Assembly: GCF_023634645.1 (NCBI RefSeq)
Contig: NZ_JAMKMR010000006.1
Location: 186,001 to 250,000, forward strand
Length of the DNA stretch: 64,000 nucleotides
DNA from: Vibrio sinus
GTDB lineage: Bacteria > Pseudomonadota > Gammaproteobacteria > Enterobacterales > Vibrionaceae
Direction of reading: 5' to 3'
Shown: positions 28,987 to 51,271 of the stretch, piece by piece
How positions within the stretch are numbered: position 1 is the first letter of the stretch
Layout of the letters: the number at the start of each line of letters is the position of its first letter
Notes under the pieces: model-generated
The model's database searches: none
What the model was told of the DNA's origin: nothing
What the model saw: the letters and a program-made list of their open reading frames with translations, nothing else
Program-made: the position numbers and the translations under genes

Positions 28987-29270
28987 TGGAGCCTCTTACC
29001 TTGCACATTTGATTTTGGAGGTTTATCGAATTTAGTTTTGAGAAATTGCAGTGTGTTGTAAACGCCCATCCGATCGCACAACTAGGCAAAAGAAATACAC
29101 TGGCCTTATGAAAACCTGAGCTTCTAAAGTAGCTTGTTATTCTACTCGGATTCTCAACCGAACTTACCAAGTATTCCCTGTATAGAGTTGGAGTTTTCTA
29201 CAAAGCTGAGCTGAATTCAATAAGTAGCCAGCAATAATCCTGACTACTTTGAAGTCACCTCAATATATTA

Positions 29271-31043: not shown

Positions 31044-31392
31044 ATTTATTTCTCCCTTAGACATTCGACTTTGGCCATTTAAATGATCCTCGCTGAGTAA
31101 CCCCTAACCAGTTATACAGTATGCTGATAAAAAGTTATAAACAATACTGATAGGGGTTATGTTCTTGAATAATATATTATTAGCAATATTGAAGAGACTA
31201 CTATTGTCAGATCAAATCATACTGATTAGGTCTATATTTGCACCAAAAATGACACCAGCTTCCTAGAAAATGGTTCACTTTGTATACTTAACCACTATTT
31301 CATTCTATATGTTAACACCTAAAAAATGAGCCGTTGATCTGTTACATTTTCCCGAAAACTCAAAAGTTGAGATGGCTAGCTATCAAAATAAA
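31044..31392. other. 349-nt gap inside arm A with a nested inverted repeat
   Basis: AT-rich gap between the spsF-like gene and the carbamoyltransferase, both leftward. It contains an inverted repeat: TAACCCCTA (31098-31106) pairs with TAGGGGTTA (31151-31159), and inside it CAGTAT (31117-31122) pairs with ATACTG (31144-31149). It could end transcripts from upstream or fold in the leader of the carbamoyltransferase mRNA. I see no coding sequence. Confidence 0.55.
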
Positions 31393-32112
31393 CTAATTAA
31401 CGTTTAAAAAATGATTCTTGTCCCAAAGTTTCGCGAGTTCAAGCACAGTCCTGGCTGATTGTTCTGGTATTGGATTGCTTAGCTCAAGCTTTTTAGCGAC
31501 CCACTCTGCACGGTGTAGATCCTTATCGGTATCAACAACTAAGGAGGTAGGATAAACAGCTTTGCATATGTTCGGATAATCCAGATAGCGAATATCGAAA
31601 CTGCCCGCTCGCTCATAGAGGAAGGAGGTAAGATGTTCTTTATGAGAAGCTTGGAAAAATTCATAGTATTTCTCCAATGCCGAGCACAATACGACCTCAG
31701 TTGTTAACCCAGGAGGAAGCATGTATTCACCAGAAGTAGTAACTAGGTCGCACCGCCGATAAGACATATTTTCAATCGACGACCTAACGATGGACACATC
31801 ATAAAATGGGCGATCACCACAAATACGCACGAAAGCATCCCAGCCATAATAATTACACGCATCTATCGCCCTTTTCGCAACATCATTTACGTTACCACGA
31901 AAAACTTCAACGCCTTGAGATTTGGCAAAGTCAGCAATTACGTCATCAGTTTTTCGATCAGAGGTGGCAACCACGACACCCTCCACTCCAGTTAACTTCT
32001 TACTTCTATCAATTACTCTACCAAGCAACTCTTGACCATTGATTTTCAATAGTGCTTTTCCGGGTAACCGAGTAGAATCATACCTAGAAAAGATTAAAAC
32101 CCCAATATTCAT
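31393..32112 (-). CDS. SpsF-like cytidylyltransferase / acylneuraminate-cytidylyltransferase family
   Basis: GT-A-fold nucleotidyltransferase of 239 residues in the COG1861 (SpsF) group. The loop IFSRYDSTRLPGKAL matches the xxxR-x(S/T)RLPGK motif of KdsB/SpsF proteins. VVVATSDRKTDD, AFVRICGDRPFYD with its metal-binding aspartate, and a late DTDKDLHRAEWV follow. It would activate an acidic or 3-deoxy sugar, or a related molecule, with CTP. Its substrate is unknown. It lies 22 nt downstream of a capsule-type transferase gene, suggesting that the two act on the same activated sugar. Confidence 0.78.
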   Translation of the reverse strand: MNIGVLIFSRYDSTRLPGKALLKINGQELLGRVIDRSKKLTGVEGVVVATSDRKTDDVIADFAKSQGVEVFRGNVNDVAKRAIDACNYYGWDAFVRICGDRPFYDVSIVRSSIENMSYRRCDLVTTSGEYMLPPGLTTEVVLCSALEKYYEFFQASHKEHLTSFLYERAGSFDIRYLDYPNICKAVYPTSLVVDTDKDLHRAEWVAKKLELSNPIPEQSARTVLELAKLWDKNHFLNVN

Positions 32113-32134
32113 ATTATTTTCAATACTTTAAACT

Positions 32135-33685
32135 CTAATTAACTCTTTTCTTCACTTCACTATCAATAAAGCTCTCGATCAATCCCCTCATCCCATCATG
32201 CTGACTTGACACAAAACTATCGTCGTACCAGCACTCTTTATACATATTCAATTGCCCGCAATTGTTAATCATAGGTACTCCGTAATTACTGATCAAACGA
32301 ACTAAAAAGTTCCGAACGTCATCCACTGATGCGACAGCACATTTCGAAAAAGTGTCGTAGCTCTCGACCTCAGACCAAGAAACCACATTCGGACACCCGG
32401 CATACCATGCTTGGCCAAATACTATTGCAGGTTTGCCTAGTAACGAAGCTTCCAACGCCACAGAACCAGTAATTGTAGCGACACCTTCGCTGTTTCTCAT
32501 TAGATCAAACGAATCGACCTCAGGTCCTGCAAGTGTAATACCTCCAATATTATTTACTAGTTGGTAAAATAATGGGCTACGTCCACGAGAGCCTCGATCG
32601 GCCATCAAAAATTGTGAAGGATGCTCCTTAACAACAATATCTATATTGCTAGGAAGAAATCTCCTCAATAAGACCAGAACCTTAAACTGATCATGATACG
32701 CCTCACCGTCAGGGTTCGTTGTTCTTTCCGGTTCATAGTGTAGAGGAAAGTAGTAATAATCATTATTAAAGTTAACCTCATGAATTGAACTTGCAATCGC
32801 GTTATAGAGATTCCGCTGTCTACTTCTTTTAACCAAGTATCTTGAAACAAAGAAAAACCTATAAGGATTAGTAGCTCGATATTTCTTATCAAGAAGCAAC
32901 TTTATATCTGAAGCTGCATAACGCAGTACATAAAGCGTTTCTACGCTAAATATTTTCTTTATCCGGTTACCAAGCCTAGCATCATTTCTCTGTCTAACCA
33001 TATAGTGTGGAGAAAAGCTGGATTTTGAACATGATAATTCCTTCAAGGTGTCTACATACTCATTAACTGTAGACTCAAACCTAGCAAGCAAACTCGGATC
33101 AATGTTCTGAGCTCTTTTAACAAAAGATCCATCTTCTTTTTGTAGGAAGTTAACTGGCATAAGTGCGCAATCTTTAAAATGAGCAGTGGGTAATCCTAGA
33201 TAACGTGCTACGCGAAAGATCAAATACTGTGCATGCGAGTGAGGTTTTTCTATCATTAATACTGCGTCGGGCTTCTTTTCATAAAAAAACTTCAACGCCC
33301 ATATTAGCAGTTTGTGAAAATACACTTCCCGATCAATTCGAGAAAAAGTACCGTTCAAGTCGAGACGATCCATCATTTTCAAACAGATGTCTTTAGCATC
33401 CAAATAATCTTTTGTCGCAAAAAATTCACTATACTCACCCAAATAGTTAATTTTTGGGATATCTACAGGCCTGTGGACAAAGTCAAGCATACGTACAACC
33501 GAATCACCGAATGTGCTTTTAGCGCCTTCATAGTGACGGTCATCACCTAACCACAGCACAGGTGTTGCCACACCAGTGTTGTGTAACTCTCGGGCTAGTT
33601 CCAACCATGGCTCATTCCCTGTCATAAAGAAGCAGTATTTGACTGGACTATTTTTATCCGAAACTGGCATATTACTTTTATTCAT
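32135..33685 (-). CDS. Capsule_synth-type glycosyltransferase
   Basis: A 516-residue cytoplasmic protein related to the KpsC/KpsS/polysialyltransferase-like GT-B group. The C-terminal half has the family landmarks VVKEHPSQF (K-E-H-P) and ATITGSVALEASLLGKPAIVFG (S at the nucleotide-binding loop, E-A-L-L-G-K-P). The N-terminal half (KYCFFMTGNEPWLELARELHN) has the expected Rossmann start. Such proteins transfer CMP-activated sugars (Kdo, sialic and related acids), which fits a position directly after pseI (4-nt overlap) and before the SpsF-like gene. It is a good candidate for the transferase that adds the pseudaminic-type residue; this is inference. Confidence 0.7.
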   Translation of the reverse strand: MNKSNMPVSDKNSPVKYCFFMTGNEPWLELARELHNTGVATPVLWLGDDRHYEGAKSTFGDSVVRMLDFVHRPVDIPKINYLGEYSEFFATKDYLDAKDICLKMMDRLDLNGTFSRIDREVYFHKLLIWALKFFYEKKPDAVLMIEKPHSHAQYLIFRVARYLGLPTAHFKDCALMPVNFLQKEDGSFVKRAQNIDPSLLARFESTVNEYVDTLKELSCSKSSFSPHYMVRQRNDARLGNRIKKIFSVETLYVLRYAASDIKLLLDKKYRATNPYRFFFVSRYLVKRSRQRNLYNAIASSIHEVNFNNDYYYFPLHYEPERTTNPDGEAYHDQFKVLVLLRRFLPSNIDIVVKEHPSQFLMADRGSRGRSPLFYQLVNNIGGITLAGPEVDSFDLMRNSEGVATITGSVALEASLLGKPAIVFGQAWYAGCPNVVSWSEVESYDTFSKCAVASVDDVRNFLVRLISNYGVPMINNCGQLNMYKECWYDDSFVSSQHDGMRGLIESFIDSEVKKRVN

Positions 33686-34731
33686 TCAAAATCATCTATT
33701 CTGACAGGAGTATTTCTTCCAATGTCTTTGGTTAACCTACGACCTATAAGAGTCTCATAAAATTTAGGAGCTAGTCCATAACCTGGCCTCACAGATCTAA
33801 TGTGCTCCTTAGTCAATAGCTCTCCAGCTTTTAGATCAGCAATATAATAAAGAGATCTTCTGAACTTGACATTACCTTGCTCACTGGATTTTGTACCGTA
33901 ATCAACCTGCCCAAGTGAGTTCCAGGCGGTTTTTGAATCACGACAGAGGGCCATTAACTCATGTGGCTCTAAAGAAAAACTATCATCCGGCCCCCCCCCC
34001 ATACGGTCAAGGGTAAAGTGCTTTTCAATAATAGAAGCCCCTAAGCAAACACTCGCGATCGCCGTTGTATTATCCAAGGTATGATCTGACAACCCAGTTA
34101 CTAAACCAAATCTATTTATCATGTCGGGTATGGTTTTCAGGTTGTAATCTGCTGCAGGTGCAGGATATCCACTAACACAATGCAGAATTGCAATATCTTT
34201 ACAGCCCCCTTCCCGTGCAGTTTCCACGGCCTCCGCAATTTCCTCTGCATCAGCCATCCCCGTGGAGATAATCATAGGTTTTCCTGTTCCCGCCGCATAT
34301 CGGATCAACGGCAAGTCAACAACCTCAAACGATGCTATTTTATAAGCTGGGGTATTTAGATCCTCGAGCATATCAATAGCCGTCATATCGAATGGAGAGC
34401 TGAAAATTGTAATTCCAAGTTTGCTGGCATAGTCAAATAGAGGTTTATGCCACTCCCAAGGCATGTGAGCTTCTTGATAAAGGTCATAGAGAGATCTCCC
34501 ATCCCATAGCCCTCCCGCTATTTTGAAATCATCTTTGTTAGATTGCAAAGTAATCGTGTCTGGCCGGTAGGTTTGAAGCTTTACAGCATCGGCCCCAGCC
34601 TTAGCCACTTCCTCAATAATTTTAATAGCTGTTTCTAATTTTCCATTATGGTTAGCCGATAATTCAGCAATTACATAGGGAGGAACATCATGACTAATAC
34701 GACGACCTGCAATTGAGATTTCAGGCTTCAT
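33682..34731 (-). CDS. pseI: pseudaminic acid synthase PseI
   Basis: Condenses 6-deoxy-AltdiNAc with phosphoenolpyruvate to give pseudaminic acid. The TIM barrel (about 1-285) shows VIAELSANHNGKLETAI, ADAVKLQTYRPDTITL, ISTGMADAEEI, LHCVSGYPAPAADYNL and GLSDHTLDNTTAI followed by EKHFTLDR. The SAF domain (about 290-349) contains AGELLTKEHIRSVRPG. The coding strand carries ten consecutive G residues (33991-34000) encoding Met-Gly-Gly-Gly at residues 244-247; the gene is in frame as sequenced, and a one-base slip there would abolish the last third. It overlaps the capsule-type transferase gene by 4 nt. Confidence 0.93.
   Translation of the reverse strand: MKPEISIAGRRISHDVPPYVIAELSANHNGKLETAIKIIEEVAKAGADAVKLQTYRPDTITLQSNKDDFKIAGGLWDGRSLYDLYQEAHMPWEWHKPLFDYASKLGITIFSSPFDMTAIDMLEDLNTPAYKIASFEVVDLPLIRYAAGTGKPMIISTGMADAEEIAEAVETAREGGCKDIAILHCVSGYPAPAADYNLKTIPDMINRFGLVTGLSDHTLDNTTAIASVCLGASIIEKHFTLDRMGGGPDDSFSLEPHELMALCRDSKTAWNSLGQVDYGTKSSEQGNVKFRRSLYYIADLKAGELLTKEHIRSVRPGYGLAPKFYETLIGRRLTKDIGRNTPVRIDDFE
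33991..34000 (-). repeat. homopolymeric G10 tract inside pseI
   Basis: Ten uninterrupted C on the plus strand (G on the coding strand). The reading frame across it (ATG then three GGG codons, then CCG) matches the open pseI frame, so the length of 10 corresponds to the ON state. Tracts of this length are prone to slipped-strand mispairing. Confidence 0.85.
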
Positions 34732-34732
34732 T

Positions 34733-35296
34733 CTATCTCCTAGTAAGACGATTTAGCTTTTCTAAAATGTCAGGACGTATATCTAACCAATCACTTTTAT
34801 GTAATTCAAGTCGAAAGACATCAAAAAACAAACCATCACGAAAATACTGTTCTTTGAACTGCCCTGCAATATTGAAGCCAAACTTCTCATGAAGTCTAAT
34901 AACTGGTTTATTGAAATCCAGAACTTCACACCAAAGCTTACGCAGCCCAAGCTCTCCAAAAGCATAATCTAGAGCAACAAACTCCATTCGAGAGCCAGTT
35001 CCTTTAGGCGCCTCCGGTGAGGCATAGAATGCCCATGGTGAATTTTGATTTTTCGTATCAATTCCGGTGAACCCAACGATACCAAGAGGTACATTTTGGA
35101 ACTCGTACATGAAGTAGCGAAATTGTTCAGACTGTTTAATACTGCTATACCAAGTTAGGTGATCGTTAAGCGATATTTCATGAGTTGTATACATATTCTC
35201 TCTCACAGTTGGAGCATTTCTCCATGAGAGCATCATTTCCAATTCAGAATCTCTAATTAATCTAAGTGTGCTAAGTAAGTTAGCATTTCCATTCAT
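34733..35296 (-). CDS. pseH: UDP-4-amino-4,6-dideoxy-N-acetyl-L-altrosamine N-acetyltransferase PseH
   Basis: GNAT-fold acetyltransferase of 187 residues that acetylates the 4-amino group made by PseC, using acetyl-CoA. Visible parts are LRLIRDSELEMMLSWRNAPTVRENMYTT at the N-terminus (the W-R-N pattern common to PseH-like GNATs), GIVGFTGID, a CoA-binding segment around APKGTGSRMEFVALDYAF, and LRKLWCEVLDFNKPVIRLHEKFGF. It lies 1 nt from pseI and overlaps pseG by 4 nt, in pathway context. Confidence 0.9.
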   Translation of the reverse strand: MNGNANLLSTLRLIRDSELEMMLSWRNAPTVRENMYTTHEISLNDHLTWYSSIKQSEQFRYFMYEFQNVPLGIVGFTGIDTKNQNSPWAFYASPEAPKGTGSRMEFVALDYAFGELGLRKLWCEVLDFNKPVIRLHEKFGFNIAGQFKEQYFRDGLFFDVFRLELHKSDWLDIRPDILEKLNRLTRR

Positions 35297-36396
35297 ACTT
35301 TTAATCTCCCAAGCATTAATTCCACTACTTTGCTACAACCATCGCCGCTAACTAGTGAAGAGCCCCCTACTGACATTCGTTTCAATACTTGAGCACTGTT
35401 TGGAGAGCTGATAAGCATCTGAAGCGCATCGAGCGCTTCCTCAATACTGTTTGCTATAATCGCAGCACCGCTGGCCTTCAAAGCCCCGGCAGCTGCGTGT
35501 TGATTCTCGGCAATAACTATCAGTATTGCCGGTAAGCCCAAACAACAACGCTCCCAAGATGTACTTCCTGCGGCACCAATCGCTAGATCAGCCCGACTCA
35601 TCCTCTCAGCCATATCTTTCACGTTCACACTTACAGTCGCTGTACAGGATAACTGCTTCGCTAGTTCTTGAACATCTTCTAAATAAGGTGCCGCGGAGCC
35701 CATAACAATATCGAGTTCTAAATAACTTGGAAGAGCTAGCGTAGAAAGCGCACCCAATAGTTTCCCGGTAACGTTTGTACGATCTATGCCACCTAACGAT
35801 ACGAAAAGCCGATACACTTTTGCGTTTTGTCGGCGATCAACACTTATCTTACGTAATTCTGCAAACTCTGGGCGTAGTAACGCGTATTGAGGGCCAACCA
35901 GGCGTAAACAACTTGCTTCTAAAAGCCCATCGTAATCACCAACCTGCCTCCCTAAATTTTGGTCCAGTAGCACGTCACAGCTATGACCTCTATCAGCAAG
36001 ATCATCGACAACAAAGACGCGAGATACGTGTTTTCCGACCAACTGCTCCCAATTTCTGTCTAATGCATAATGATCTACGACGAGCCAATCTACGGCTCTA
36101 TCACTCAATACCAATTGAGTTTGTTGTGCATCTTGCTCCCAGTGAGTACCAAGCCAACGAGCATGATCGTTCCACTCAAATCTTGTTGCCTGTTTGTCGC
36201 ACGTAGTGTCACTAGGTAGCATTTCAACTCGATGACCGTGTGACCTGATTTTTTCACTCAAATGTCCTTTATGAGCGCGTGTTATAAATATGCACTCGTG
36301 GCCTCGATGTATTAATTCATCTGCAAGCGCTAAACAGCGCATTACGTGACCTGTGCCAATCTCAACCGATGAGTCTGTACGAAAGGCGATTTTCAT
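35293..36396 (-). CDS. pseG: UDP-2,4-diacetamido-2,4,6-trideoxy-L-altrose hydrolase PseG
   Basis: GT-B-like hydrolase that removes UDP to release the hexose used by PseI. The N-terminal motif GTGHVMRCLALADEL contains the G-x-G-H pattern with the catalytic histidine. LVVDHYALDRNWE, VFVVDDLADRGHSCDVLLDQN, LFVSLGGIDRTNVTG and AIGAAGSTSWERCCLGLPAILIV are typical of PseG. The length of 367 residues is within range. It overlaps pseH by 4 nt, and its start ATG abuts pseF. Confidence 0.92.
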   Translation of the reverse strand: MKIAFRTDSSVEIGTGHVMRCLALADELIHRGHECIFITRAHKGHLSEKIRSHGHRVEMLPSDTTCDKQATRFEWNDHARWLGTHWEQDAQQTQLVLSDRAVDWLVVDHYALDRNWEQLVGKHVSRVFVVDDLADRGHSCDVLLDQNLGRQVGDYDGLLEASCLRLVGPQYALLRPEFAELRKISVDRRQNAKVYRLFVSLGGIDRTNVTGKLLGALSTLALPSYLELDIVMGSAAPYLEDVQELAKQLSCTATVSVNVKDMAERMSRADLAIGAAGSTSWERCCLGLPAILIVIAENQHAAAGALKASGAAIIANSIEEALDALQMLISSPNSAQVLKRMSVGGSSLVSGDGCSKVVELMLGRLKV

Positions 36397-37094
36397 TAAA
36401 CCACCCCTTCAGCCCGCATTGCTTTGAACAACCACTCTGCCCTTTCCCAATCTTCTATCGTATCTATATCTTGCACTCTAAAACGAGGCAACTTAACTAC
36501 GCTCGATTGTTGTGTGAAAACAACTCTCTCTTCGCACCAAGCCTCAGCTGTGCCCCAATAGAATTGTCCAGCGTCATGCCACGCTTCAACAAGATCTTGT
36601 GATCGTGTAAAAAAATGCTTGGCCTGAAACATGTTAATTCTGCCAGCATTATCTATTTCAAAAGCTCTTTGGATGGGGTATGAGTAACTAGAAGCTGAGA
36701 ACACGTAATCAAGTTCGCTGCCCTCAATCAAGTTCAAACCTGTTCCTAGATCCTTACCCAAGACAAAAGGAGCTGTGGCGTACAAGCAACAAGCCAGCGC
36801 TACATTCTCTCCATTTTTGTTCATCCATTCAATCGCATGATGCATCACGGGGATCGTACCCGTGTGATCATCGGAAAGGTTATGGGGACGGAAAAAGGGA
36901 ACCTCAGCCCCGCAGTCTTTCGCAACATCTGCGATCTCAGCGTCATCTGTTGAAACTATAACTCTATCGAAATAACCTGACTCTATCGCGGTAGCAATTG
37001 AGAAACTGATCATTGGCTTACCACAGAACTGCTTGACGTTCTTTCGTGGGATTCTCTTACTTCCCCCACGAGCAGGAATCACACATAGTTTCAT
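36396..37094 (-). CDS. pseF: CMP-pseudaminic acid synthetase PseF
   Basis: Activates pseudaminic acid with CTP to CMP-Pse. GT-A-fold cytidylyltransferase of 232 residues with a complete nucleotide loop (VIPARGGSKRIPRKNVKQF), VSTDDAEIADVA, CCLYATAPF and the late VQDIDTIEDWERAEWLF segment. The family-typical HDAGQFYWG segment is present. It overlaps pseG and pseC by 1 and 4 nt. A second PseF-like enzyme occurs in arm B (47318-48004). Confidence 0.93.
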   Translation of the reverse strand: MKLCVIPARGGSKRIPRKNVKQFCGKPMISFSIATAIESGYFDRVIVSTDDAEIADVAKDCGAEVPFFRPHNLSDDHTGTIPVMHHAIEWMNKNGENVALACCLYATAPFVLGKDLGTGLNLIEGSELDYVFSASSYSYPIQRAFEIDNAGRINMFQAKHFFTRSQDLVEAWHDAGQFYWGTAEAWCEERVVFTQQSSVVKLPRFRVQDIDTIEDWERAEWLFKAMRAEGVV

Positions 37095-38305
37095 GCTATT
37101 GCCATCAAGTTACGTAATGATGCTATGACTGAATTAAATTCTTCATCAGTCAAACCGTAATACAGTGGGAGGGTTAAAGTCTGTTCGTAGTACGAATTAG
37201 TATTTGGGCACGCGCTTTGCCTGTAACCTAGCGTACTATAATATGGCTGCCAATGGACTGGGATGTAATGCACCTGGCTACCTATCCCCATATCCTTCAA
37301 ACGCCTCATAAACTCACCGCGCCCAATGGCGAGCTTATCAAACGATATTCGAGCTATGTATATGTGAATTGAGCTATCGGTTCTATATTGCGGTTGTGCA
37401 GGTTCAATAAATGGGATATCTCGTAAAGCTTCGTCATAACGTAATGCCAGCTCTTGACGCCTCATTACAAATCTATTCAATTTTTTAAGTTGAGATACAC
37501 CCAGTGCAGCCTGAAAATCTGTCATTCGATAATTAAAGCCCAACTGCTGCATTTCGTAGTACCAAGGATTTAAATTTCCCTCTGAATCGAATGCGTTTTC
37601 AGGACAGAAGAGTGGTTCGCTATCTGGCACACTAATCCCGGGGTGTACAAAGTTTCCTTTGCATATTCCATGGCTTCTTAACTGCAGCAATTTTTTATAA
37701 GACATGTAGTCATTTGTAGTAATGACTCCCCCCTCGCCTGTCGTAACACCCTTAACAGGGTGAAGCGAAAAAACTGTGAAATCAGAGTATTTACAGCTTC
37801 CAACTTTTGCTCCGCACTGATAACTGGCTCCGAGGGCGTGGGCCGCGTCTTCAATCACTTTTACTCCAGCCGGATTTACCATTGACGCGATACTTTCCAT
37901 ATCACATGGAAGCCCTCCAAAGTGTACAGGTAGAACTACTTTCACCCCACTGGTTCGCAGAAGTTCTTTTCCTAACTCTTCTGGGCACATATTAAGTGTG
38001 GTTGGATCCATATCCACGAACACTGGTCGAGCGCCACAATAGAGAACCGCATTTGGTGTTGACACAAAGGTATTAGGGCTAACCAAGGCTTTATCACCTT
38101 TAGAAAGGCCTGTGGCCATACAAGCTAAATGAAGTCCTGCCGTAGCGTTTGACACTGCAACGGCATACTTAGCGCCCACCATTTCCGCTAGCTTTGCCTC
38201 GAATTCATCTATCTTAGGGCCTTGAGTCAACCAGCCATTTTTCAGTACATCAACCACTGCATCGATATCATCTTGTTCGATAAAATGCTTTCCATACGGG
38301 ATCAT
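37091..38305 (-). CDS. pseC: UDP-4-amino-4,6-dideoxy-N-acetyl-L-altrosamine transaminase PseC
   Basis: PLP-dependent DegT/DnrJ/EryC1 aminotransferase that aminates the UDP-4-keto-6-deoxy-L-sugar made by a C5-inverting dehydratase. Features include IPYGKHFIEQDDIDAVVDVL, FVSTPNAVLYCGARPVFVD, VIEDAAHALGASY and the PLP lysine in FSLHPVKGVTTGEGG. The C-terminus has GIGSQVHYIPVHWQPYY. It is 404 residues. The first nucleotide of its stop is directly followed by pseF. No pseB lies next to it, which is unusual, since pseB-pseC are normally adjacent. Confidence 0.92.
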   Translation of the reverse strand: MIPYGKHFIEQDDIDAVVDVLKNGWLTQGPKIDEFEAKLAEMVGAKYAVAVSNATAGLHLACMATGLSKGDKALVSPNTFVSTPNAVLYCGARPVFVDMDPTTLNMCPEELGKELLRTSGVKVVLPVHFGGLPCDMESIASMVNPAGVKVIEDAAHALGASYQCGAKVGSCKYSDFTVFSLHPVKGVTTGEGGVITTNDYMSYKKLLQLRSHGICKGNFVHPGISVPDSEPLFCPENAFDSEGNLNPWYYEMQQLGFNYRMTDFQAALGVSQLKKLNRFVMRRQELALRYDEALRDIPFIEPAQPQYRTDSSIHIYIARISFDKLAIGRGEFMRRLKDMGIGSQVHYIPVHWQPYYSTLGYRQSACPNTNSYYEQTLTLPLYYGLTDEEFNSVIASLRNLMAIA

Positions 38306-43272: not shown

Positions 43273-43971
43273 ATGGCTCTCACTTTCATCGCTGAAATTG
43301 GCTTGAATCATAATGGTAATTTTGGCCTACTACCTGAACTGATTCGCCAAGCCTCTCTCGCTGGTGCCGATATTGCCAAATTTCAGCTTGGCTGGCGTGC
43401 AGGCGAAGGTGAAATGAATCAGCTGACCAAAAAAGAACTGAAAGTGATCGTAGATGCATGTGAATATTATGGTGTTGAGCCAATGTTCTCGATTTTTACA
43501 GAAGAAGCTTTAGAAACGATTAAAACGTTTGATTATGATTTCACCCACTACAAAATCGCTTCACGTACTGTGGTTGATAATCCAGAGCTGGTAGAGAAAG
43601 TTCTAGATGAAGGGAAAGAAACATTTGTATCACTAGGGTTCTGGGATAGAGAAGGCCTACCATTTGAGAATCGCGATAATTTAAATTATCTGTTCTGCAT
43701 TTCCAAATACCCATGCTTACCAAACGATATAAAAAATTTCCCTGAAGACTTTTCTAGCTCGCCTTACATTGGCTATAGCGACCATACGATTGGTACCGAG
43801 GCAGTGCTTCTAGCTGTAGCAAGAGGAGCAAAAGTAATTGAAAAACATTTCACCTTAGATAAATCAGATACCACCATTCGCGATCATGCCCTCAGCACCA
43901 CGCCAGATGAATTTGGTGAAATGGTAAAAAACGCACGTGCGATCTCACGTTTGCTGGACTTGGGAGTTTAA
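43273..43971 (+). CDS. NeuB-family synthase-like protein, TIM barrel only
   Basis: A 232-residue protein related to the PEP-condensing nonulosonate synthases (NeuB/PseI/LegI). The barrel motifs are recognisable: FIAEIGLNHNGNFGLLPELI, ADIAKFQLGW, THYKIASRTVVDNPEL, SKYPCLPNDI, IGYSDHTIGTEAVLLAVARGAKVIEKHFTLD and DHALSTTPDEF. It differs from classic members in two ways: STGM is replaced by VSLGFW, and the C-terminal SAF domain (about 60 residues) that closes the partner active site is absent. AAGGAAA precedes the ATG. It is the first gene of arm B and is followed after 7 nt by a formyltransferase. Substrate unknown. Confidence 0.75.
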   Translation: MALTFIAEIGLNHNGNFGLLPELIRQASLAGADIAKFQLGWRAGEGEMNQLTKKELKVIVDACEYYGVEPMFSIFTEEALETIKTFDYDFTHYKIASRTVVDNPELVEKVLDEGKETFVSLGFWDREGLPFENRDNLNYLFCISKYPCLPNDIKNFPEDFSSSPYIGYSDHTIGTEAVLLAVARGAKVIEKHFTLDKSDTTIRDHALSTTPDEFGEMVKNARAISRLLDLGV

Positions 43972-43978
43972 AGCTTCT

Positions 43979-44689
43979 ATGGAAAAGGTTGTCCTATTGG
44001 GGAATGATACACCACATCGCCGTTATATCATTAATTCGCTTATCGATCGTGGATTTAACATTAGCGATTGTTTATTCCAAACCAACAATCTGGAACCCTC
44101 ATTTGATACCAAGCCCAAATGGCAAACACAGGAAAATGAGGCATTAATAAGTCTTTTTGAGAACGAAGCTCGCCAGGATCTTGAACGTGTATCAGTACAA
44201 TATGTAAGAGATTTGAATGACACAACGTCACAGGACTACCTTAAAACGATTGCCCCCTCTTTTTACATCGTTAGCGGCGCGGGTAAGTTAAAAGGTAGCA
44301 TCTTACAGCTGATTACTAATAAGAGCCTAAACGTACATATTGGTTATGCCGAAGAATATCGTGGTCTTGATAGCAACCTCTGGGCTATTTACCATGGCGA
44401 CTATTCACATATCGGCGTTACACTCCATAAACTAGAAAACGAGTTAGATACAGGGAATATCATTGAGCAAACAACTCTAGATCTACCCTCCGATATTGCG
44501 ATCACTACTTTACGCTATTATGAATCACGTTTAGCGGTAGAGATGCTTACGCGTGCACTAGAGAAGCAAAGGCAAGGACAGCTCGCTAGTCGCAAGCAAA
44601 CATCGCTCGGCAGATATTACTCGTTTATGCCAGCCTGTTTAAAAGACCATATTGAGAGTAAAATTACTAAGGCGACGAGATTGAAATAA
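43979..44689 (+). CDS. formyltransferase-family protein
   Basis: A 236-residue protein of the methionyl-tRNA formyltransferase/sugar N-formyltransferase fold. The catalytic Asn-His pair appears as LNVHIGYAEEYRG, and the catalytic Asp in ELDTGNIIEQTTL. Such enzymes use N10-formyl-tetrahydrofolate to formylate amino sugars. I chose the ATG at 43979 (MEKVVLLGND), 7 nt after the NeuB-like stop, instead of the upstream in-frame GTG overlapping that gene. It is adjacent, stop-to-start, to a polysaccharide deacetylase. Context suggests an N-formyl modification of the arm B sugar. Confidence 0.75.
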   Translation: MEKVVLLGNDTPHRRYIINSLIDRGFNISDCLFQTNNLEPSFDTKPKWQTQENEALISLFENEARQDLERVSVQYVRDLNDTTSQDYLKTIAPSFYIVSGAGKLKGSILQLITNKSLNVHIGYAEEYRGLDSNLWAIYHGDYSHIGVTLHKLENELDTGNIIEQTTLDLPSDIAITTLRYYESRLAVEMLTRALEKQRQGQLASRKQTSLGRYYSFMPACLKDHIESKITKATRLK

Positions 44690-45616
44690 ATGACCAAAGA
44701 TCACGAACTGACCATGTTACTCTACCATGGAGTGACAAACACTTCACCAGAAGGAATTGCTAACTACTCAGGCAAACATATTGCAGCAAATGCTTTTGAT
44801 GACCAGATGCGTATACTTCATAATCACTGCAATGTACTCACCATCGACGATGTAGTAACACTTACCCGAGAGAAAAAAGACTGGCCAGAGAATGCTGTGG
44901 TAGTAACATTTGATGATGGATTTAGAAACAATCTTCAATGCGCCGCCCCGATACTGGAAAAATACAACATCCCCGCAACCTTTTACATATGTGCGGGCAT
45001 GGTCGGAACAGATCAAATGTTTTGGGTCGATGAGATTGAAGATTGTATAAACCGAACTCTACACTCTACAATCACCATTACACTTGATAAAAAACGATAC
45101 TTTGAGTTAACGTCACCCGAAGCAAAGATCTCTGCTATAGAGTCTATTAAGCAATTCTGCAAACGTTCTACATCAGTCACAAAAAACCGCGTACTTGCAG
45201 ATCTCACCCTAGCATCCGATATAACTCCGAATGTGAAGCACTCTGCGAACTATCAGATGATGTCATGGGATGAGTTAATAGAACTTAATAGTAACCCACT
45301 CTTCACCATTGGTGGTCACACTTTATATCATGATATCATGTCTTCGCGTCCAGTAGAGGAAATGACTCAGGATGTCAAAGAAACCTTATCTTTACTTGAG
45401 CAGAAGCTAGGTCACCCAATTCGGCATTTTGCTTACCCAGAAGGACAAGCACATCATTACTCGGAAGAAGTCATTACATCCCTCAAAAACTACGGAGTAT
45501 CCATCTGTCCAACAGCAATTGACGGAACCAACCCGCCGGGAAGTGATCTATTCCACCTAAAACGCATTATGCCCGGTTTCATGAATCGAGCGTTCCCTAT
45601 ATTGTCTGAGGTTTGA
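44690..45616 (+). CDS. polysaccharide deacetylase (NodB/CE4 family)
   Basis: A 308-residue carbohydrate esterase family 4 protein without a signal peptide. The metal and catalytic motifs are VVTFDDGFRNN (D-D) and GGHTLYHDIM (H-x3-H); a later FAYPEGQAHHYSEEV replaces the usual motif 3. Cytoplasmic members can remove an N-acetyl group from a sugar precursor, which would expose an amine for the preceding formyltransferase. Its ATG directly follows the formyltransferase stop (TAAATG), so the two are surely co-expressed. Confidence 0.83.
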   Translation: MTKDHELTMLLYHGVTNTSPEGIANYSGKHIAANAFDDQMRILHNHCNVLTIDDVVTLTREKKDWPENAVVVTFDDGFRNNLQCAAPILEKYNIPATFYICAGMVGTDQMFWVDEIEDCINRTLHSTITITLDKKRYFELTSPEAKISAIESIKQFCKRSTSVTKNRVLADLTLASDITPNVKHSANYQMMSWDELIELNSNPLFTIGGHTLYHDIMSSRPVEEMTQDVKETLSLLEQKLGHPIRHFAYPEGQAHHYSEEVITSLKNYGVSICPTAIDGTNPPGSDLFHLKRIMPGFMNRAFPILSEV

Positions 45617-46174
45617 TAAAGCACGATTGAACTCTGTTGCATATACGAAAATAGAGGCATCACTATCACTACTCGTGTTCTAGCTTTCGCCCAAGGTCCA
45701 TTATGAAGTAAAAAAGTTACCGGTTACCCAAAGGCGCTATTCTTACCTTAACTCTACTGTTAATTTCTGCAACATAGTAGGAACCTATATGGAGAGATGC
45801 ATCAACATTAACCATACAACATCAACTGCCGGCTCTTATTTCTCCCCCAGAAACTGAACAAGCTGCGCACCGTTATTAGATAATGTATTTCTAAATTCTT
45901 AAGGTCGAGAAAAGCAAAGGGAAATAAACGTGCTACCAATTGGCTGTTGATAAGCTCTAAGGTTCGATCAGCTTTTCTCTCTGTAAAAAGCAACAGATAA
46001 ACTTGGCATAGGCAATTGGATCTGTTTAAGCTGGAACGATTAGCTAGATGAGTAATGCTACAACAAAATGAATTATTAAGAGTGTTACATTCCAAAATGT
46101 GAAGGATAATATTTATTATAGATACCATCATTGCTCAAATTCAAAGCAGAACTATCAATAGTGAGAAAATAAAC
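45617..46174. other. 558-nt non-coding gap in arm B
   Basis: No convincing gene. A leftward open frame of 107 codons (45808-46131) has no ribosome site, no recognisable motif and stops typical of chance. The sequence just after the deacetylase stop contains CTCTGTTGCATA, faintly reminiscent of insertion-sequence ends, but I found no partner repeat or transposase. It probably holds decayed DNA plus a promoter for the downstream genes. Confidence 0.4.
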
Positions 46175-47229
46175 ATGAGAGTATTAGTGATTGGCTGTGG
46201 CTCTTTGGCCAACGCCAGGCTCGAAATGCTGTAGCATTGGGCTGTGAGGTCGTACTTTGCGATTTATATAAAGCATGCTTTTCAACATTTTCAAAGTAAA
46301 TCAACGCATTAGAATCTTATACCGACCTAAACCAAGCTGTAGAACAGGCTAAACCTCAAGCCACAGTAATTGCAACACCAAGCAATCTGCATGTGAAGCA
46401 TGCCAAAGCTATGCTAGGGTTCGGCATCCATGTCATGGTCGAAAAACCTCTAAGTAATTCTTTGTCAGGTGTCTATAAGCTACAGGAAATCGTATATAAA
46501 TCTGATTCAGTTTTTATGATGGCACACACCTATCGCTTCCGAGAAGAGTGGCAAAGAATAAAGAGCTTGCTTGATTCAGCTCCTGTAGGCAAAGTGTATA
46601 CGGCAGAGTTTTCAGGTGGCTTATACCTTCCAGACTGGCACTACCAAGAAGATTATAGAAAAGAATATGCAGCTAACAAGAAACAAGGCGGTGGAGTTTT
46701 ATTGACGAGCCTAAGCCACTTTTTTGATTTAGTTGACTGGTATTTTGGAAAAATCATTAATGTGGCTGGTGTAAAATCTAAACAGAGTGATTTGGACCTT
46801 GATGTTGAAGACGTTGTGACTTGTACGGTGAAAACTGACAGTGGAATATTAGTGACTTTCTATGAGGATTTTCTCTCTAGATCTCCAAGACGCACTTTCA
46901 GAGTTAATGGAGAATTCGGTTACATTGAAATAGATTTTAATCGGAAAACTTTGTGTATTTGGGATTCTCGTAAGAATCGCTTTTTACCCAGTGCTACTTT
47001 GGAAAACGACATAGAGTTATTTCGTATTCTAGAAGATGGGATCGGATACAAAATGGAACCAGAGCTTCAACAGCTAGGTTACTCAGGTAATGATGCTTAT
47101 TTAGCTGAACTAAAGCACTTTTTAAACCTTGTAGATAAGGGTGAATCAGATAGTAAGCTCAATATAGATGCCGGAATGAAAGTCTTAGAGGTGATCAACC
47201 ATGCGAGACTCCAAAATTGGATGACTTAA
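46175..47229 (+). pseudogene. Gfo/Idh/MocA-family oxidoreductase, broken by frameshift and stop
   Basis: The gene starts at 46175 with MRVLVIGCGS, the Rossmann motif of the family. One base is missing just after this (near 46202-46206), and the other frame continues as GQRQARNAVALGCEVVLCDLYKA, then hits an in-frame TAA at 46297. After it the homology goes on without interruption: YTDLNQAVEQAKPQ, VIATPSNLHVKHAKAML, HVMVEKPLSNSLSG and the C-terminal domain with GGGVLLTSLSHFFDLVDWYFG. A remaining open frame from a GTG at 46393 (278 residues) lacks the NAD-binding first half. Relatives oxidise or reduce nucleotide- or CMP-linked sugars. It looks recently inactivated. Confidence 0.85.
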
Positions 47230-47317
47230 AATGAATAACTTAAATATGGTATTTACTTGTTCATTTAGTTTATATATCACATCAACTATTAGATTCCCCC
47301 TCTAAGGACAGACGATA

Positions 47318-48004
47318 ATGAGACTTGCAATTGTACCTGCTCGTGGAGGGAGTAAACGCATCCCCCAAAAAAACATAGTGACATTTTGTGGAAGACCGAT
47401 GATCGTATATGCTTTGGAGGCTCTAAAACAATCACGTTTATTTGATAAAATTCATGTTTCAACAGATTGCGAAGAAATCCGAAATGTAGTTATTGAAGAA
47501 GGCTTTTCTGTAGATTTTATGCGAGATCCAAAACTGGCTGACGATTATACAGGGTTAATTCCGGTAATGCGCTGGGTTCTGGACGAATATAAGAAACTCG
47601 GGGAGGAATATACGCAAGTATGCTGTATGATGCCAACAGCTCCCTTGTGCAGGAGCCAAGACCTGTTGGACGCATATGAAATATTTGAGCAAGCCAAAGG
47701 CCACTATCCTCTTATTGTATATGCTAAATATCCTGTACCGATTGAGTGGGCATTTAGGCGTCAGAATGATGGTTTAATGAGTGCTGATTCGCCAGATTTA
47801 TTATCTACTCGATCGCAAGATCTTGAAGATGCCTACTATGAGTGCGGACCTTTTACCCTATGGACTTCTAAGCACTTAAATCAACGAGAGCCTCAATCAG
47901 GTAAAGTTTTACCATATATTATGCCGAATGAGAGAGCTGTAGATATAGATACTCCAGATGATTTGGCGTACGCTGAGCGTTTATACCGCCTTATGTATCA
48001 ATGA
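47318..48004 (+). CDS. CMP-nonulosonate synthetase (PseF/NeuA-like)
   Basis: A 228-residue GT-A cytidylyltransferase with an intact nucleotide loop (IVPARGGSKRIPQKNIVTF), VSTDCEEIRNVV, CCMMPTAPLCRSQDLLDA, YECGPFTLWTSKHL and the metal-binding DIDTPDDLAYAERL. It resembles PseF but is divergent from the arm A copy. It implies that arm B ends in a CMP-activated acid sugar distinct from, or parallel to, Pse. An AGGACAGACGATA sequence lies upstream of the ATG. It is followed 42 nt later by the aminotransferase. Confidence 0.88.
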   Translation: MRLAIVPARGGSKRIPQKNIVTFCGRPMIVYALEALKQSRLFDKIHVSTDCEEIRNVVIEEGFSVDFMRDPKLADDYTGLIPVMRWVLDEYKKLGEEYTQVCCMMPTAPLCRSQDLLDAYEIFEQAKGHYPLIVYAKYPVPIEWAFRRQNDGLMSADSPDLLSTRSQDLEDAYYECGPFTLWTSKHLNQREPQSGKVLPYIMPNERAVDIDTPDDLAYAERLYRLMYQ

Positions 48005-48046
48005 TGAGCTTACTCGTTCCGCAAGCCAAAAATAGAAAAGAAAGCT

Positions 48047-49333
48047 ATGTATAATTATCGAAATTCCGAACAATTGCTCGAACGGGCATTAAAGACGATT
48101 CCACTTGGATCTCAAACTTTTAGTAAAAGTAAAACTCAGTATCCTCATGGTGTTTCCCCGTACTTTATTCAAAAAGGGAAAGGAAGTCGTGTATGGGATG
48201 TAGATGGTAATGAATATGTTGACTACATTAATAGTTTGGCCGCAATTACTTTAGGCCATCAAGATCCAGATGTGGATTCCGCTGTAAAGGCACAGATTGA
48301 AGAAGATGTACTTTTTTCTTTACCCCACCCAATTGAAATGCAGGTTGCAGAGAAGTTGGTTGAACTGGTCCCCTGTGCTGAAAAAGTTCGATTTGGAAAA
48401 AATGGTTCAGATGCTACAGCTGGGGCGATCAGGTTAGCCCGCGCATTTACGAAACGTGATCATGTTGCAGTGTGTGGTTACCATGGTTGGCAGGATTGGT
48501 ATATTGGAAGCACTTCTCGAAATTTAGGCATACCTGAAGCAGTTCAAGACCTTACTCACAAATTTATATTTAATAATATAGAAAGTCTTGAACATGTATT
48601 TGCCAACCATCCAAAAAAAATTGCAGCAGTCATTCTCGAACCAATGAACATCGAAGAACCACATCCAGGTTTTCTAGAAGCAGTCAAAGAGTTAGCACAT
48701 CATCACGGTGCCTTATTGATTTTTGATGAAACTATTACAGGGTTTCGTTATTCAACGGGCGGGGCTCAACAGCTTTTTAATGTAACCCCTGATTTAGCGA
48801 CATTTGGTAAAGGGCTTGCAAATGGCTACCCTTTGTCCGTGCTAGTTGGATCTTCTGAAGTTATGTCCCTTATGGAAGAAGTATTTTTTTCTTTTACTTT
48901 TGGCGGGGAGACTGTATCTCTTGCAGCTGCGTTGGCCACTTTAAATAAGCTCCAAAGAGAGCCAGTTATTGATACCTTACAAAACCAAGGCACTAAAATT
49001 ATTCAAGCTCTATCGAATATAATTAAAGATGAGTGTGCCAGTGATTTTCTTCATGTGTCAGGTCACCCTAGTTGGAGTTTCTTTTCCATGGCCGACTGTC
49101 AAGGTATCTCTCACTGGAATCTTAAAACACTTTTTTTACAGGAGATGTTCGCTCGCGGTATTCTGACGCTTGGTACTCATAATATGAGTTATAGTCACTG
49201 TGATGAAGACGTGAATTTACTCATCAAAGCATACGAAGAAGTGATACCTTTAATAGTCAATGCTGTCCGCCAAGGTAGAGTTGACAACCTTCTTCGTTGC
49301 GCTCCTATAGAGCCTTTATTTAAAGTTCGTTGA
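48047..49333 (+). CDS. class-III aminotransferase, glutamate-1-semialdehyde aminomutase-like
   Basis: A 428-residue PLP enzyme of the HemL/class-III fold. Features include GSRVWDVDGNEYVDYI, GKNGSDATAGAIRLARAFT, CGYHGWQDWYIGST, LIFDETITGFRYSTGG and the PLP lysine in DLATFGKGLANGYPLSVLVG. A true HemL would sit with haem genes; homologues in glycan loci next to CMP-sugar synthetases are thought to aminate the sugar chain. It probably puts an amine on the arm B sugar, which a formyl group could then block. Last gene of the rightward arm B run. Confidence 0.8.
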   Translation: MYNYRNSEQLLERALKTIPLGSQTFSKSKTQYPHGVSPYFIQKGKGSRVWDVDGNEYVDYINSLAAITLGHQDPDVDSAVKAQIEEDVLFSLPHPIEMQVAEKLVELVPCAEKVRFGKNGSDATAGAIRLARAFTKRDHVAVCGYHGWQDWYIGSTSRNLGIPEAVQDLTHKFIFNNIESLEHVFANHPKKIAAVILEPMNIEEPHPGFLEAVKELAHHHGALLIFDETITGFRYSTGGAQQLFNVTPDLATFGKGLANGYPLSVLVGSSEVMSLMEEVFFSFTFGGETVSLAAALATLNKLQREPVIDTLQNQGTKIIQALSNIIKDECASDFLHVSGHPSWSFFSMADCQGISHWNLKTLFLQEMFARGILTLGTHNMSYSHCDEDVNLLIKAYEEVIPLIVNAVRQGRVDNLLRCAPIEPLFKVR

Positions 49334-49567
49334 TAAAATATTTGTCTTATAGGTGTGGTGATCTTACTCATCACATCAAGCCTTTCGTAAGCACCTCATA
49401 AACCCCATGGGGGTTTGAAAGGCAAAACACCTTATAAGGCCCTCATTGAGAGAATGAGAGCCTAAAATGTGCTGTCAGTTGGGTTTCGGAGCTCACAACG
49501 TGAAGCAATATATTTTGACTTACTCAACTAACCACAGCACTTATGTATTACTCTAGGCATTTTCACG
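49334..49567. other. convergent spacer with two hairpins
   Basis: Between the aminotransferase and the leftward formyltransferase/propeller gene. Hairpin 1 is AAACCCC-ATG-GGGGTTT at 49400-49416, extended by CCTTTC/GAAAGG outside (49381-49386 with 49417-49422). Hairpin 2 is CTCATT-GAGAG-AATGAG at 49442-49458 with GGC/GCC further out. They may act as bidirectional terminators although neither has a long T-run. Confidence 0.45.
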
Positions 49568-51271
49568 TTAACTATCCGAACAATCATTTTTCATTGTAAG
49601 CAAACCAGTTTTGTTTTTGGCTATCTCAACAAAATCAAATACCAGAAGTCCTTTATCAAAGTTGTAAGTGTGAGTTCCCTTTATTCCTTTGAAGAATCTA
49701 GGCTCAACCTCAAATAACACTTCTTCTGAGTAATCAGAAGTAGTTAGAGTTTTTACTTTTGCCACTCCTAATGCTTTGCCATAGAAGTTAAATCCTTGGC
49801 GCTGAAAAGCTCGGTAAGTTGCGCTCTCGTCTCTTATTAATCCACCATTACGTGCTGTTAAAGGATCAAAAATTAGAGGGTTCTTATCGTGTGGAGTCCA
49901 ATTATCCGTCAAAGGATCAGACCCATAAAATATATGAAGTTGAGACCCATGCTCACCTACTGAGCTTTTATCCAAGTTGGTAAACATCCACCACTTATCC
50001 CCATGAGGAAAGATCGTAGTATCTGTTGCAGATAAGTCTTTCATAATTGTTTTATGAAAAGCCCATTTAAGTGGAAAATCTACGCACTTATAGAGCCTTA
50101 TTTCTCTCTTTTCTTGTGTCTCCGGACACATATAAAGCTCGCCGTTAAATTCGAAGCAATAAGGGTAAGATAGATGAAAATCCTCTACTAACGCTGCTCC
50201 TAACTCTACGCTTGAATCTGACGTTATCTTATAGACTGATATGCTTCCTTTTTTTGTTGCGTAGTCATAATCTTCAACAAAGCAGTAATGCTCACCATTT
50301 CGATAGACCACAAATGGATCGGCAAGAAATCGATTTTTGGGATTAGGTATCTTAATTGAACGCCACAGCGTGACATCACGCCAGTTCTCCACAAACTGAT
50401 ATGCAACACCCCATCTGTGGCTTTTACCCCTTATTTTTCTTAACATCTTTCCAAAAAGAATTGCAGACGTTTTCACTAGGTAAACTGATGATTGGGGCAC
50501 ACTTGGCACCGTATACAAAGGGTAGCTGTAAGGAGATTTTTTCTGAGCACTGAGAGAAGACTTTCCTGAAGTAATATTATCAATGACGTTATGAAGAAAC
50601 GGATTTGCTACTTCATACAATTTTGCTAAGTTTAGGCTATAGAACCAGCTTGTAGGTACAAACCCTTTGTAAAGAACGTCTCCTCCATCTAATTCCTCTT
50701 TCAGCCTTTGAATAATAAATCCAGTTCTTGGATTACGCTCGTAGACTTCCCAAAAGCCAGCGGGGCCACCACGATTAATGTCATTATCTGCATGATGGAA
50801 TGAGATGATCCCATTGGGACAAACAGTTAGTATTTCTCCTCGCAAAATACCGCTCCCGGCGCGAATAAGTAAGTCTAATTTTGCATTTTTAATTTTTTCG
50901 AGGTCAGACTTTTCATACCTGTAAACAAGCCCACTCGGAGATATTGTTGGCTTTACATTGATAACTTCATACTTACTTTCAGAGAGTTGGTATTTGTCAT
51001 AAAATGCAGAAAACTTTCCCACACGCTTAATAGCTAGTGACTCAAGCTTACATATTAATTTAAATACTGCAGCTGATGAGAATTTAGATAGACCACAACT
51101 GTTTATATAGGAAAATATTTTCGAAATAATATTCGCGTCATTCTTATTTATATTATTGATAACTAGAGATGTAATTTCATAATTATCCGACTGCAATGAA
51201 AGCTGCAATAGATCATTTATTTGTTTTGATACACTAGTAGAGTCAACAAGAATCCCAACTTTCTTTTTCAT
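49568..51271 (-). CDS. formyltransferase-like domain fused to a GINT1_N-like (beta-propeller) domain
   Basis: A 567-residue two-domain protein. The N-terminal half (about 1-260) is formyltransferase-like: LLIRAGSGILRGEIL, CPNGIISFHHADNDINRGGPAGFWEVYERN and ELDGGDVLYKG. By my alignment the catalytic Asn position is Ser, while the His and Asp remain. The C-terminal half (about 270-567) resembles the domain named after glucosamine inositolphosphorylceramide transferase 1, a GH43-like propeller: ADPFVVYRNGEHYCFVEDYDY, SYPYCFEFNGELYMCPET and TTIFPHGDKWWMFTN. Function unknown. It overlaps by 4 nt an upstream decayed frame and faces arm B. Confidence 0.65.
   Translation of the reverse strand: MKKKVGILVDSTSVSKQINDLLQLSLQSDNYEITSLVINNINKNDANIISKIFSYINSCGLSKFSSAAVFKLICKLESLAIKRVGKFSAFYDKYQLSESKYEVINVKPTISPSGLVYRYEKSDLEKIKNAKLDLLIRAGSGILRGEILTVCPNGIISFHHADNDINRGGPAGFWEVYERNPRTGFIIQRLKEELDGGDVLYKGFVPTSWFYSLNLAKLYEVANPFLHNVIDNITSGKSSLSAQKKSPYSYPLYTVPSVPQSSVYLVKTSAILFGKMLRKIRGKSHRWGVAYQFVENWRDVTLWRSIKIPNPKNRFLADPFVVYRNGEHYCFVEDYDYATKKGSISVYKITSDSSVELGAALVEDFHLSYPYCFEFNGELYMCPETQEKREIRLYKCVDFPLKWAFHKTIMKDLSATDTTIFPHGDKWWMFTNLDKSSVGEHGSQLHIFYGSDPLTDNWTPHDKNPLIFDPLTARNGGLIRDESATYRAFQRQGFNFYGKALGVAKVKTLTTSDYSEEVLFEVEPRFFKGIKGTHTYNFDKGLLVFDFVEIAKNKTGLLTMKNDCSDS

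Follow-up and report, generated by a model that had tools for sequence, protein, structure and literature searches.

Arm B of the window, our term for the whole 64,000-nucleotide stretch of Vibrio sinus analyzed here (contig NZ_JAMKMR010000006.1, positions 186,001 to 250,000 of the forward strand, from a genome of 4.8 Mb), carries six consecutive plus-strand genes that likely, if only by a slight preponderance, form two functional modules rather than one pathway. Module B1, consisting of a short NeuB-type synthase, a formyltransferase and a deacetylase, would make an ulosonate-type sugar, likely with exchange of an N-acetyl for an N-formyl group. Module B2, consisting of a broken oxidoreductase, a PseF-like synthetase and a HemL-like aminotransferase, would put an amino group onto a pseudaminate-type sugar. 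This reading builds on the observed gene content and order, the broken gene, conserved motifs, a barrel model and the recurrence of each module elsewhere. All genes named in a preliminary description of this DNA, including a NeuB without SAF domain and a broken Gfo/Idh oxidoreductase, were found at the positions it had given. Starting from 43273, the plus-strand order is as follows.

43273-45616, plus strand: module B1
43273..43971, plus strand: short NeuB-type synthase (NeuBs), 232 amino acids (aa), no SAF domain; PF03102, 118 bits; B1
43979..44689, plus strand: N-formyltransferase (FT1), 236 aa from ATG; PF00551, 42.6 bits (cut-off 26.1); B1
44690..45616, plus strand: polysaccharide-deacetylase-family protein (CE4), 308 aa; PF01522, 73.2 bits; B1
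46176-49333, plus strand: module B2
46176..47229, plus strand: Gfo/Idh/MocA oxidoreductase remnant, broken in its Rossmann part, with an open part at 46393-47229; B2
47318..48004, plus strand: PseF-like CMP-ulosonate synthetase (PseFl; CMP, cytidine monophosphate); PF02348; B2
48047..49333, plus strand: HemL-like class-III aminotransferase; PF00202, 180 bits; B2

The case for B1 as a unit comes from its recurrence. NeuB loci were collected with one genome per species, keeping the best 80 of 379 relatives, and were divided into a short family of 27 loci (at least 48% identity; L023-L049) and a control group of 53 loci with longer NeuB proteins (28-35%; L050-L102). In all locus surveys, the tblastn summaries retain only the best non-overlapping match per place, so that any weaker family matching there goes unseen. 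A formyltransferase and then a CE4 follow NeuB downstream, in the same order as in the window, in nine of the 27 short-NeuB loci (L023, L029, L032, L035, L037, L039, L045, L048 and L049) versus none of the 53 longer-NeuB loci, an association with a Fisher p of about 2e-5 when relatedness is ignored; a CE4-type match alone occurs in two control loci. The nine records are labeled as Alphaproteobacteria (with Magnetospirillum and Rickettsiales), Magnetococcales, Bacteroidetes, Neomarinimicrobiota, Prochlorococcus and SAR86. The recurrence of these three genes in order is more than chance.

A search of 5.8 billion proteins with NeuBs, its candidates limited to 0.55-1.75 times the query length, returned 6944 matches among 7995 scored candidates. 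Because the best 120 relatives of NeuBs are 222-248 aa long, with PF03102 as their sole listed domain, the short NeuB represents a family rather than a truncation. None was found in 60 other related genomes, where all NeuB-type matches fall in open frames of 341 aa or more. An AlphaFold2 model of NeuBs, with a mean pLDDT (predicted local distance difference test) of 89.8, has eight strands in a (beta/alpha)8 barrel. Foldseek places 6ncs, NmeNeuB and CjPseI at the top of its matches, followed by SpsE proteins and then by DAHP (3-deoxy-D-arabino-heptulosonate 7-phosphate) synthases, with TM scores (query) of 0.79-0.84 to 1xuu, 6ncs and 8h2c.

We compared NeuBs with the 13 contact residues of NmeNeuB listed in the available part of PMC6795526, by sequence alignment rather than superposed coordinates. 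Seven are identical (E25=E8, Q55=Q38, K129=K94, Y186=Y146, S213=S169, H215=H171 and E234=E190), Thr110 and Phe112 plausibly correspond to S73 and F75 in an ungapped alignment, and Asn184 is replaced by Ser, as it is in the window's own PseI. The PEP (phosphoenolpyruvate) side of the enzyme thus looks usable in this alignment, and the other side, which recognizes the N-acyl sugar, looks to be gone; the substrate of NeuBs probably differs from that of an ordinary NeuB. In the proposed reaction of NeuBs, PEP would be condensed with an aldose whose recognition does not involve an SAF arginine. The preliminary description had named a lack of PEP-binding residues in the NeuB-like protein as something that would refute it; it passes this check, with a full barrel model and most residues of the PEP and metal side kept by alignment.

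Downstream of NeuBs, FT1 was listed with a GTG start at 43937 that overlaps neuB. We took the ATG at 43979, seven bases past the neuB stop, and six of nine relatives' formyltransferase open reading frames (ORFs) begin at the corresponding position or immediately beside it. The N-x-H and LD-x-G motifs of FT1 and the FDDG and GGH...H motifs of CE4, which we take to be catalytic (in the formyltransferase as the N-x-H, Asp triad), are each present in all ten of the aligned members, among them that of the window, in keeping with the formyltransferase and deacetylase roles assigned in the preliminary description. CE4 would strip an N-acyl group, and FT1 would then formylate the freed amine. In the pseudaminate-type loci L151, L154 and L167, a formyltransferase adjoins or lies near a PIG-L deacetylase, unrelated to CE4. 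The pairing of a formyltransferase with a deacetylase in two builds fits acetyl removal followed by formylation, a sequence of steps that would also be expected for nonulosonates with a 5-N-formyl group, such as the one in Halorubrum.

The main rival for B1 is modeled on the Arn pathway and has the reverse logic: FT1 formylates an amino sugar, a GT2 glycosyltransferase transfers it, and CE4 then deformylates it to leave a free amine. The cassette does hold the classes of the ArnA formyltransferase, ArnC and ArnD, taking ArnC to be a GT2 and ArnD a CE4 as we assume, FT1 matches ArnA (in NCBIfam, with ArnA also among the PDB matches), and 17 of the 27 short-NeuB loci have a GT2 domain of the kind found in the Arm A fusion described below. 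In the available text of PMC12650200, formyltransferase, glycosyltransferase and deformylase act in that order, with formyl as a temporary group. However, the Arn pathway has no NeuB, and ArnC is a membrane protein acting on undecaprenyl phosphate. The best NCBIfam matches of the window's CE4 are the PgaB and IcaB deacetylases; no ArnD-named model is among its matches at E <= 0.001, although whether the library holds such a model was unchecked. The formyltransferase also sits with PIG-L deacetylases in the pseudaminate-type loci. We consider the Arn-like route unlikely. Exchange of formyl for acetyl is what we infer instead, although the sequences of FT1 and CE4 do not decide between the two.

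The usual partners of the B1 cassette stand elsewhere in the window, in Arm A, a location that the preliminary description had overlooked. The following minus-strand features of the window are relevant here; those at 27580..38305 belong to Arm A.

23495-24535, minus strand: FnlA/CapE-like dehydratase (named by eye), 46% to PseB
27580..28986, minus strand: GT2 glycosyltransferase fused to a CMP-sialate-synthetase-fold domain (GT2/NTase)
29271..31064, minus strand: NodU-type carbamoyltransferase (CarbT)
31393..32112, minus strand: SpsF-type cytidylyltransferase
32135..33685, minus strand: PF05159 Capsule_synth protein, possibly an ulosonate transferase
33682..38305, minus strand: pseudaminate-type genes PseI, PseH, PseG, PseF and PseC

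The gene order in L029 is TviB-ABC-GT516-SpsF-CarbT-[NeuBs-FT-CE4]-GT2/NTase, and that in L045 is SpsF-CarbT-[NeuBs-FT-CE4]-GT2/NTase. CarbT homologs (65% in L029, 56% in L045) stand directly before NeuBs, SpsF homologs stand before CarbT in both loci as well as in L218, and the cassette is closed by a homolog of the GT2/NTase fusion (58% in L029, 26% in L045). Arm A follows the order of L029, but with TviC and the pseudaminate-type genes interposed, and the slot of the triplet is a 284-bp gap, the triplet itself being found in Arm B, at a distance of 14 kb. The cassette appears to be split in the window, because homologs of the genes that flank it in L029 and L045 stand in Arm A. When 369 class genomes were searched with the GT2/NTase fusion (E <= 1e-40), two additional loci emerged, L218 (G568) and L220 (G646). 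L218 follows the order of Arm A and shares with it the order PseC, PseG, PseH, PseI, and in the triplet's slot it has an SpsF fused to a longer NeuB, which suggests that this slot supplies an ulosonate synthase. The longer NeuB has an SAF-like tail by eye, although Pfam lists no SAF. In L220, a 38% short NeuB stands beside the GT2/NTase fusion.

In this arrangement, the Arm A SpsF and the GT2/NTase fusion would activate and transfer the B1 product, and the carbamoyltransferase would decorate it. A model of the C-terminal domain of the fusion (pLDDT 83.6) matches the CMP-sialate synthetases 1eyr and 6ifd with TM scores of 0.74-0.85; the domain may bind a CMP-sugar rather than activate it. The Arm A PseI has NeuB and SAF domains, and PseC scores above its equivalog cut-off, whereas PseF, PseG and PseH were named from place and similarity.

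B2 starts with the oxidoreductase. Its 278-aa open part matches PF01408 with 21.6 bits, below the cut-off of 24, and its best relatives are mostly 351-360 aa long. Four intact relatives, 354-360 aa in length, can be aligned at 46204-47226 within a single frame over residues 11 to about 350, and nothing at the locus corresponds to their first ten residues. The aligned frame contains a stop just before 46300, and a start-like reading at 46176 belongs to a different one. Because of the frame change near residue 10 and the later in-frame stop, the gene is a pseudogene, or the sequence is wrong in two places. At E <= 1e-50, a scan of 369 class genomes gave a match to this gene in no genome other than the own one, and Gfo-type matches occur in five of the 53 longer-NeuB loci at 25-34% identity.

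The following gene, PseFl, scores 203.9 bits with TIGR03584, just under the equivalog cut-off of 205.7, and is 37% identical to the window's own PseF; it is a further cytidylyltransferase beside the PseF and SpsF of Arm A. The HemL-like protein has a lysine, K255, in an FGKG motif, which we take to be the pyridoxal phosphate lysine. It falls below both the HemL equivalog cut-off (263.5 versus 527.3 bits) and that of PRK06209 (429.6 versus 486), and by its context it is a HemL-like aminotransferase of sugar loci. Its relatives (45-63% identity) mostly belong to nonulosonate-type loci. At E <= 1e-100, a scan of 295 order genomes gave matches in 18; at E <= 1e-120, 15 of 398 phylum genomes had one. 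Both counts include the own genome, and three further genomes appear in both. From these, 22 extended loci were surveyed, derived from 12 of the 17 other order genomes and 10 of the 11 new phylum genomes; five order genomes were seen with flanks of about 1.5 kb only, and G893 was left out as its match lies at a contig start. A cytidylyltransferase is nearby in 20 of the 22 loci (SpsF type in 17, PseF-like in three), together with an aldo/keto reductase (AKR) in 18, PseB in 17, PseC in 16 and PseI in 15. In L186, L189 and L191 of the 22, and additionally in L218, cytidylyltransferase and HemL occupy one open frame, and HemL also occurs in seven of the 53 control NeuB loci. Owing to this neighborhood, these fusions and the control NeuB loci, HemL goes with CMP-ulosonate synthesis, and its assignment to nonulosonate-type loci in the preliminary description agrees with the survey.

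PseFl and HemL recur together in three of the 22 loci (L187, L190 and L192). Within the stretch 9352-12114 of L187, a xylose-isomerase-like barrel (PF01261) stands beside the PseF-like gene, and in L187 a protein that by eye resembles radical SAM proteins lies between PseF-like and HemL. A barrel that looks alike stands beside PseF-like in L190 (4559-5350). A recurrent trio of Gfo, PseFl and HemL was considered and rejected, as Gfo is present in none of the 22 HemL loci. PseFl and HemL would act together on the pseudaminate-type ulosonate of Arm A, at a ketone that an oxidoreductase would need to provide. Because the oxidoreductase is broken here, B2 is probably idle unless another enzyme takes its place. 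For the site of amination, the parallel with EpaA/EpaB suggests C8: according to the accessible part of PMC12053666, these enzymes 8-epimerize pseudaminic acid, EpaA being a cytidylyltransferase with an aldo/keto reductase, which parallels the AKR-SpsF-HemL module of the relatives. EpaA/EpaB differ in having no aminotransferase in that description, and they epimerize C8 rather than aminate it.

The preliminary description had joined all six families in a single pathway to an N-formylated CMP-nonulosonate, in which oxidation and transamination by HemL create the amine that is formylated. We keep this as a quite unlikely alternative because of functional equivalents elsewhere. In L151 and L154, the latter from the window's genus, PseB, PseC, AKR, SpsF, HemL, PseG, a formyltransferase of PF21553 type, PIG-L and PseI stand in one cluster, and L218 combines the HemL module with the CarbT-NeuB-GT2/NTase slot in one locus. 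The six functions can thus co-occur, but in L151 and L154 all except HemL come from other families, and PseI is used rather than a short NeuB. The same six families were found together in none of the 27 short-NeuB loci and none of the 22 HemL loci: none of the former has HemL, Gfo or PseF-like as best match, and none of the latter shows a short NeuB, FT1, CE4 or Gfo. In the window itself, the oxidation step drawn for the single pathway is missing, its gene being broken.

With more reserve than the two-module reading, we also advance a broader picture, tentatively and as a less than probable one, in which the two arms of the window jointly produce a glycan containing two different ulosonates, of which one bears formyl and carbamoyl groups and the other is an amino-pseudaminate. 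Here, the B1 triplet would be a portable cassette for undescribed formylated ulosonates, with a fixed slot between the carbamoyltransferase and the GT2/CMP-synthetase fusion, where it replaces an SpsF-NeuB fusion, and the amino-pseudaminate would come from a cytidylyltransferase-coupled HemL enzyme.

Several points weigh against these proposals for B1 and B2. NeuBs scores far below the NCBIfam equivalog cut-offs (121.2 versus 399.65 bits for NANAS, 96.7 versus 340.25 for PseI). Phe288 and Arg314 of NmeNeuB are without counterpart and the Asn74 loop is shortened, so that the PEP reaction of NeuBs is, judging by this alignment, not certain; in NmeNeuB, R314A is inactive and R314K active (available part of PMC6795526, citing Joseph et al.). 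The order in which CE4 and then FT1 act is likewise one that we infer. FT and CE4 are missing from 18 of the 27 short-NeuB loci, two of the 27 having less than 2 kb of sequence downstream, and therefore NeuBs also functions alongside other proteins. One of the nine cassette loci, L049, has an interrupted NeuB reading, CarbT is found in only two and GT516 in one of the 27, and many records are metagenome bins or single-cell genomes, some of them close kin, so that the counts are not independent. Furthermore, nine of the 27 loci hold a cytidylyltransferase fused to a 2-hydroxyacid dehydrogenase, for which we have no explanation in the neighborhood of a protein resembling alpha-keto-acid synthases. 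This D-2-hydroxyacid dehydrogenase joint ORF is seen in L024, L026, L027, L028, L032, L038, L040, L042 and L046, and both proteins are present but separate in L039.

Other points concern Arm A and its counterpart in L218. The nucleotidyltransferase-like domain of the window's GT2 fusion (27580-28302, minus strand) has a changed nucleotide-binding RG motif, and the L218 HemL shares no more than 34% identity with that of the window. Neither a canonical PseB nor an AKR of the relatives' kind was found in the own genome, where the best PseB match (46%) is the FnlA-like gene of the window. As there is no canonical PseB, the FnlA-like protein would have to perform the first step, and the Arm A pseudaminate-type genes may rely on it, presumably through the chemistry that we ascribe to FnlA.

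A reading of Arm B as the decaying remains of sugar loci acquired by horizontal transfer, without any product, is very unlikely: the broken Gfo gene, the stretches of about 850 bp before NeuB and about 560 bp between CE4 and the Gfo remnant in which no gene was recognized, a GC content of 0.37-0.41 over 42-52 kb of the window versus 0.44-0.45 over 52-62 kb and the absence of a short NeuB from the 60 related genomes would suit it, but five of the six frames are intact, the examined motifs are kept, and the spacing of seven bases between neuB and FT1 and zero bases between FT1 and CE4 is operon-like. A comparison of six gap stretches with our own small ORF library gave no gene remnant at E <= 0.01, which is a weak test.

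On the opposite strand, Arm B has one further gene.

49568..51271, minus strand: formyltransferase-like N-terminus (fmt, 6.9e-5, a weak match) fused to PF24793 GINT1_N

The GINT1_N part is presumably a propeller. The preliminary description had listed this protein opposite the set; we rejected it as part of the pathway: Ser replaces the Asn of its N-x-H motif, its propeller part is unmatched in the 27 short-NeuB loci, and the whole protein is not the best match anywhere in the 22 HemL loci. It probably lies outside both modules.

Among known systems, we take PseJ (PDB 6ci4) to act in the pathway to 7-N-formyl-pseudaminic acid; like B1, this pathway has an N-formyltransferase within nonulosonate synthesis. 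FT1 differs from PseJ in being distant from it (6.6e-7), in being coupled to CE4 and a short NeuB, and in not standing in for PseH, which is present in Arm A. The systems that follow are compared as far as the accessible portions of the cited articles describe them. A 7-formamido-pseudaminic acid is reported in Pseudoalteromonas distincta (PMC3210612). In Halorubrum sp. PV6, 5-N-formyl-legionaminic acid was seen by mass spectrometry and its pathway was partly tested; the locus has a predicted formyltransferase with LegI and LegF, and those portions do not mention a short NeuB or CE4 (PMC6137143). In Shewanella oneidensis, whose flagellin carries a putative pseudaminate-type sugar, SO_3261 of the sfmABCDE genes (290 aa, with a NeuB domain) is needed for full flagellin modification (PMC3765264). 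NeuBs is likened to it by domain only, and the sfm partners differ in including a thiamine pyrophosphate enzyme, a methyltransferase and an ATP-grasp protein. In the O-antigen locus of Legionella pneumophila serogroup 6, PseG, an annotated glutamate-1-semialdehyde aminomutase and an acylneuraminate cytidylyltransferase adjoin, as in the HemL loci, and no short NeuB, FT or CE4 is mentioned in the accessible text (PMC3694923). Flexibacter maritimus is known to have an 8-amino nonulosonate (PMC3210612).

The preliminary description had spoken of a possible undescribed pathway. In a literature search without most subscription journals, none of the titles listed describes this gene set, and none of those listed concerns the genes behind the 8-amino sugar of Tenacibaculum. 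N-formyl nonulosonates are nevertheless in print (PMC6137143, PMC3210612, as far as accessible), as are 8-amino ones, and the gene set is a new variant, not a new kind. If confirmed, it would provide a new route to sialic-acid-like surface sugars. Nonulosonates coat flagella, capsules and lipopolysaccharides, and shape the encounters of bacteria with phages and hosts. A NeuBs barrel that has the PEP side and lacks SAF domain and arginine raises the question of which sugar it accepts. The pairing of a formyltransferase with a deacetylase (CE4 here, PIG-L in pseudaminate-type loci) makes acyl exchange directly testable. Finally, the fusions of cytidylyltransferase and HemL link a class-III aminotransferase with the synthesis of CMP-ulosonates, and they offer a candidate for the enzyme that makes 8-amino nonulosonates.

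Carriage of the short NeuB by phages or plasmids was considered and rejected, as matches at E <= 1e-20 comprise no phage record and three plasmid records below 40% identity. Three IMG/VR loci match the short NeuB at 28-33%. In L214 (plasmid p6 of Azospirillum argentinense), a 39% short NeuB at 8001-8699 lies between an asparagine synthase and a methyltransferase, and the nearby GNAT, DegT, GT2 and NTP-transferase genes form another partner set.

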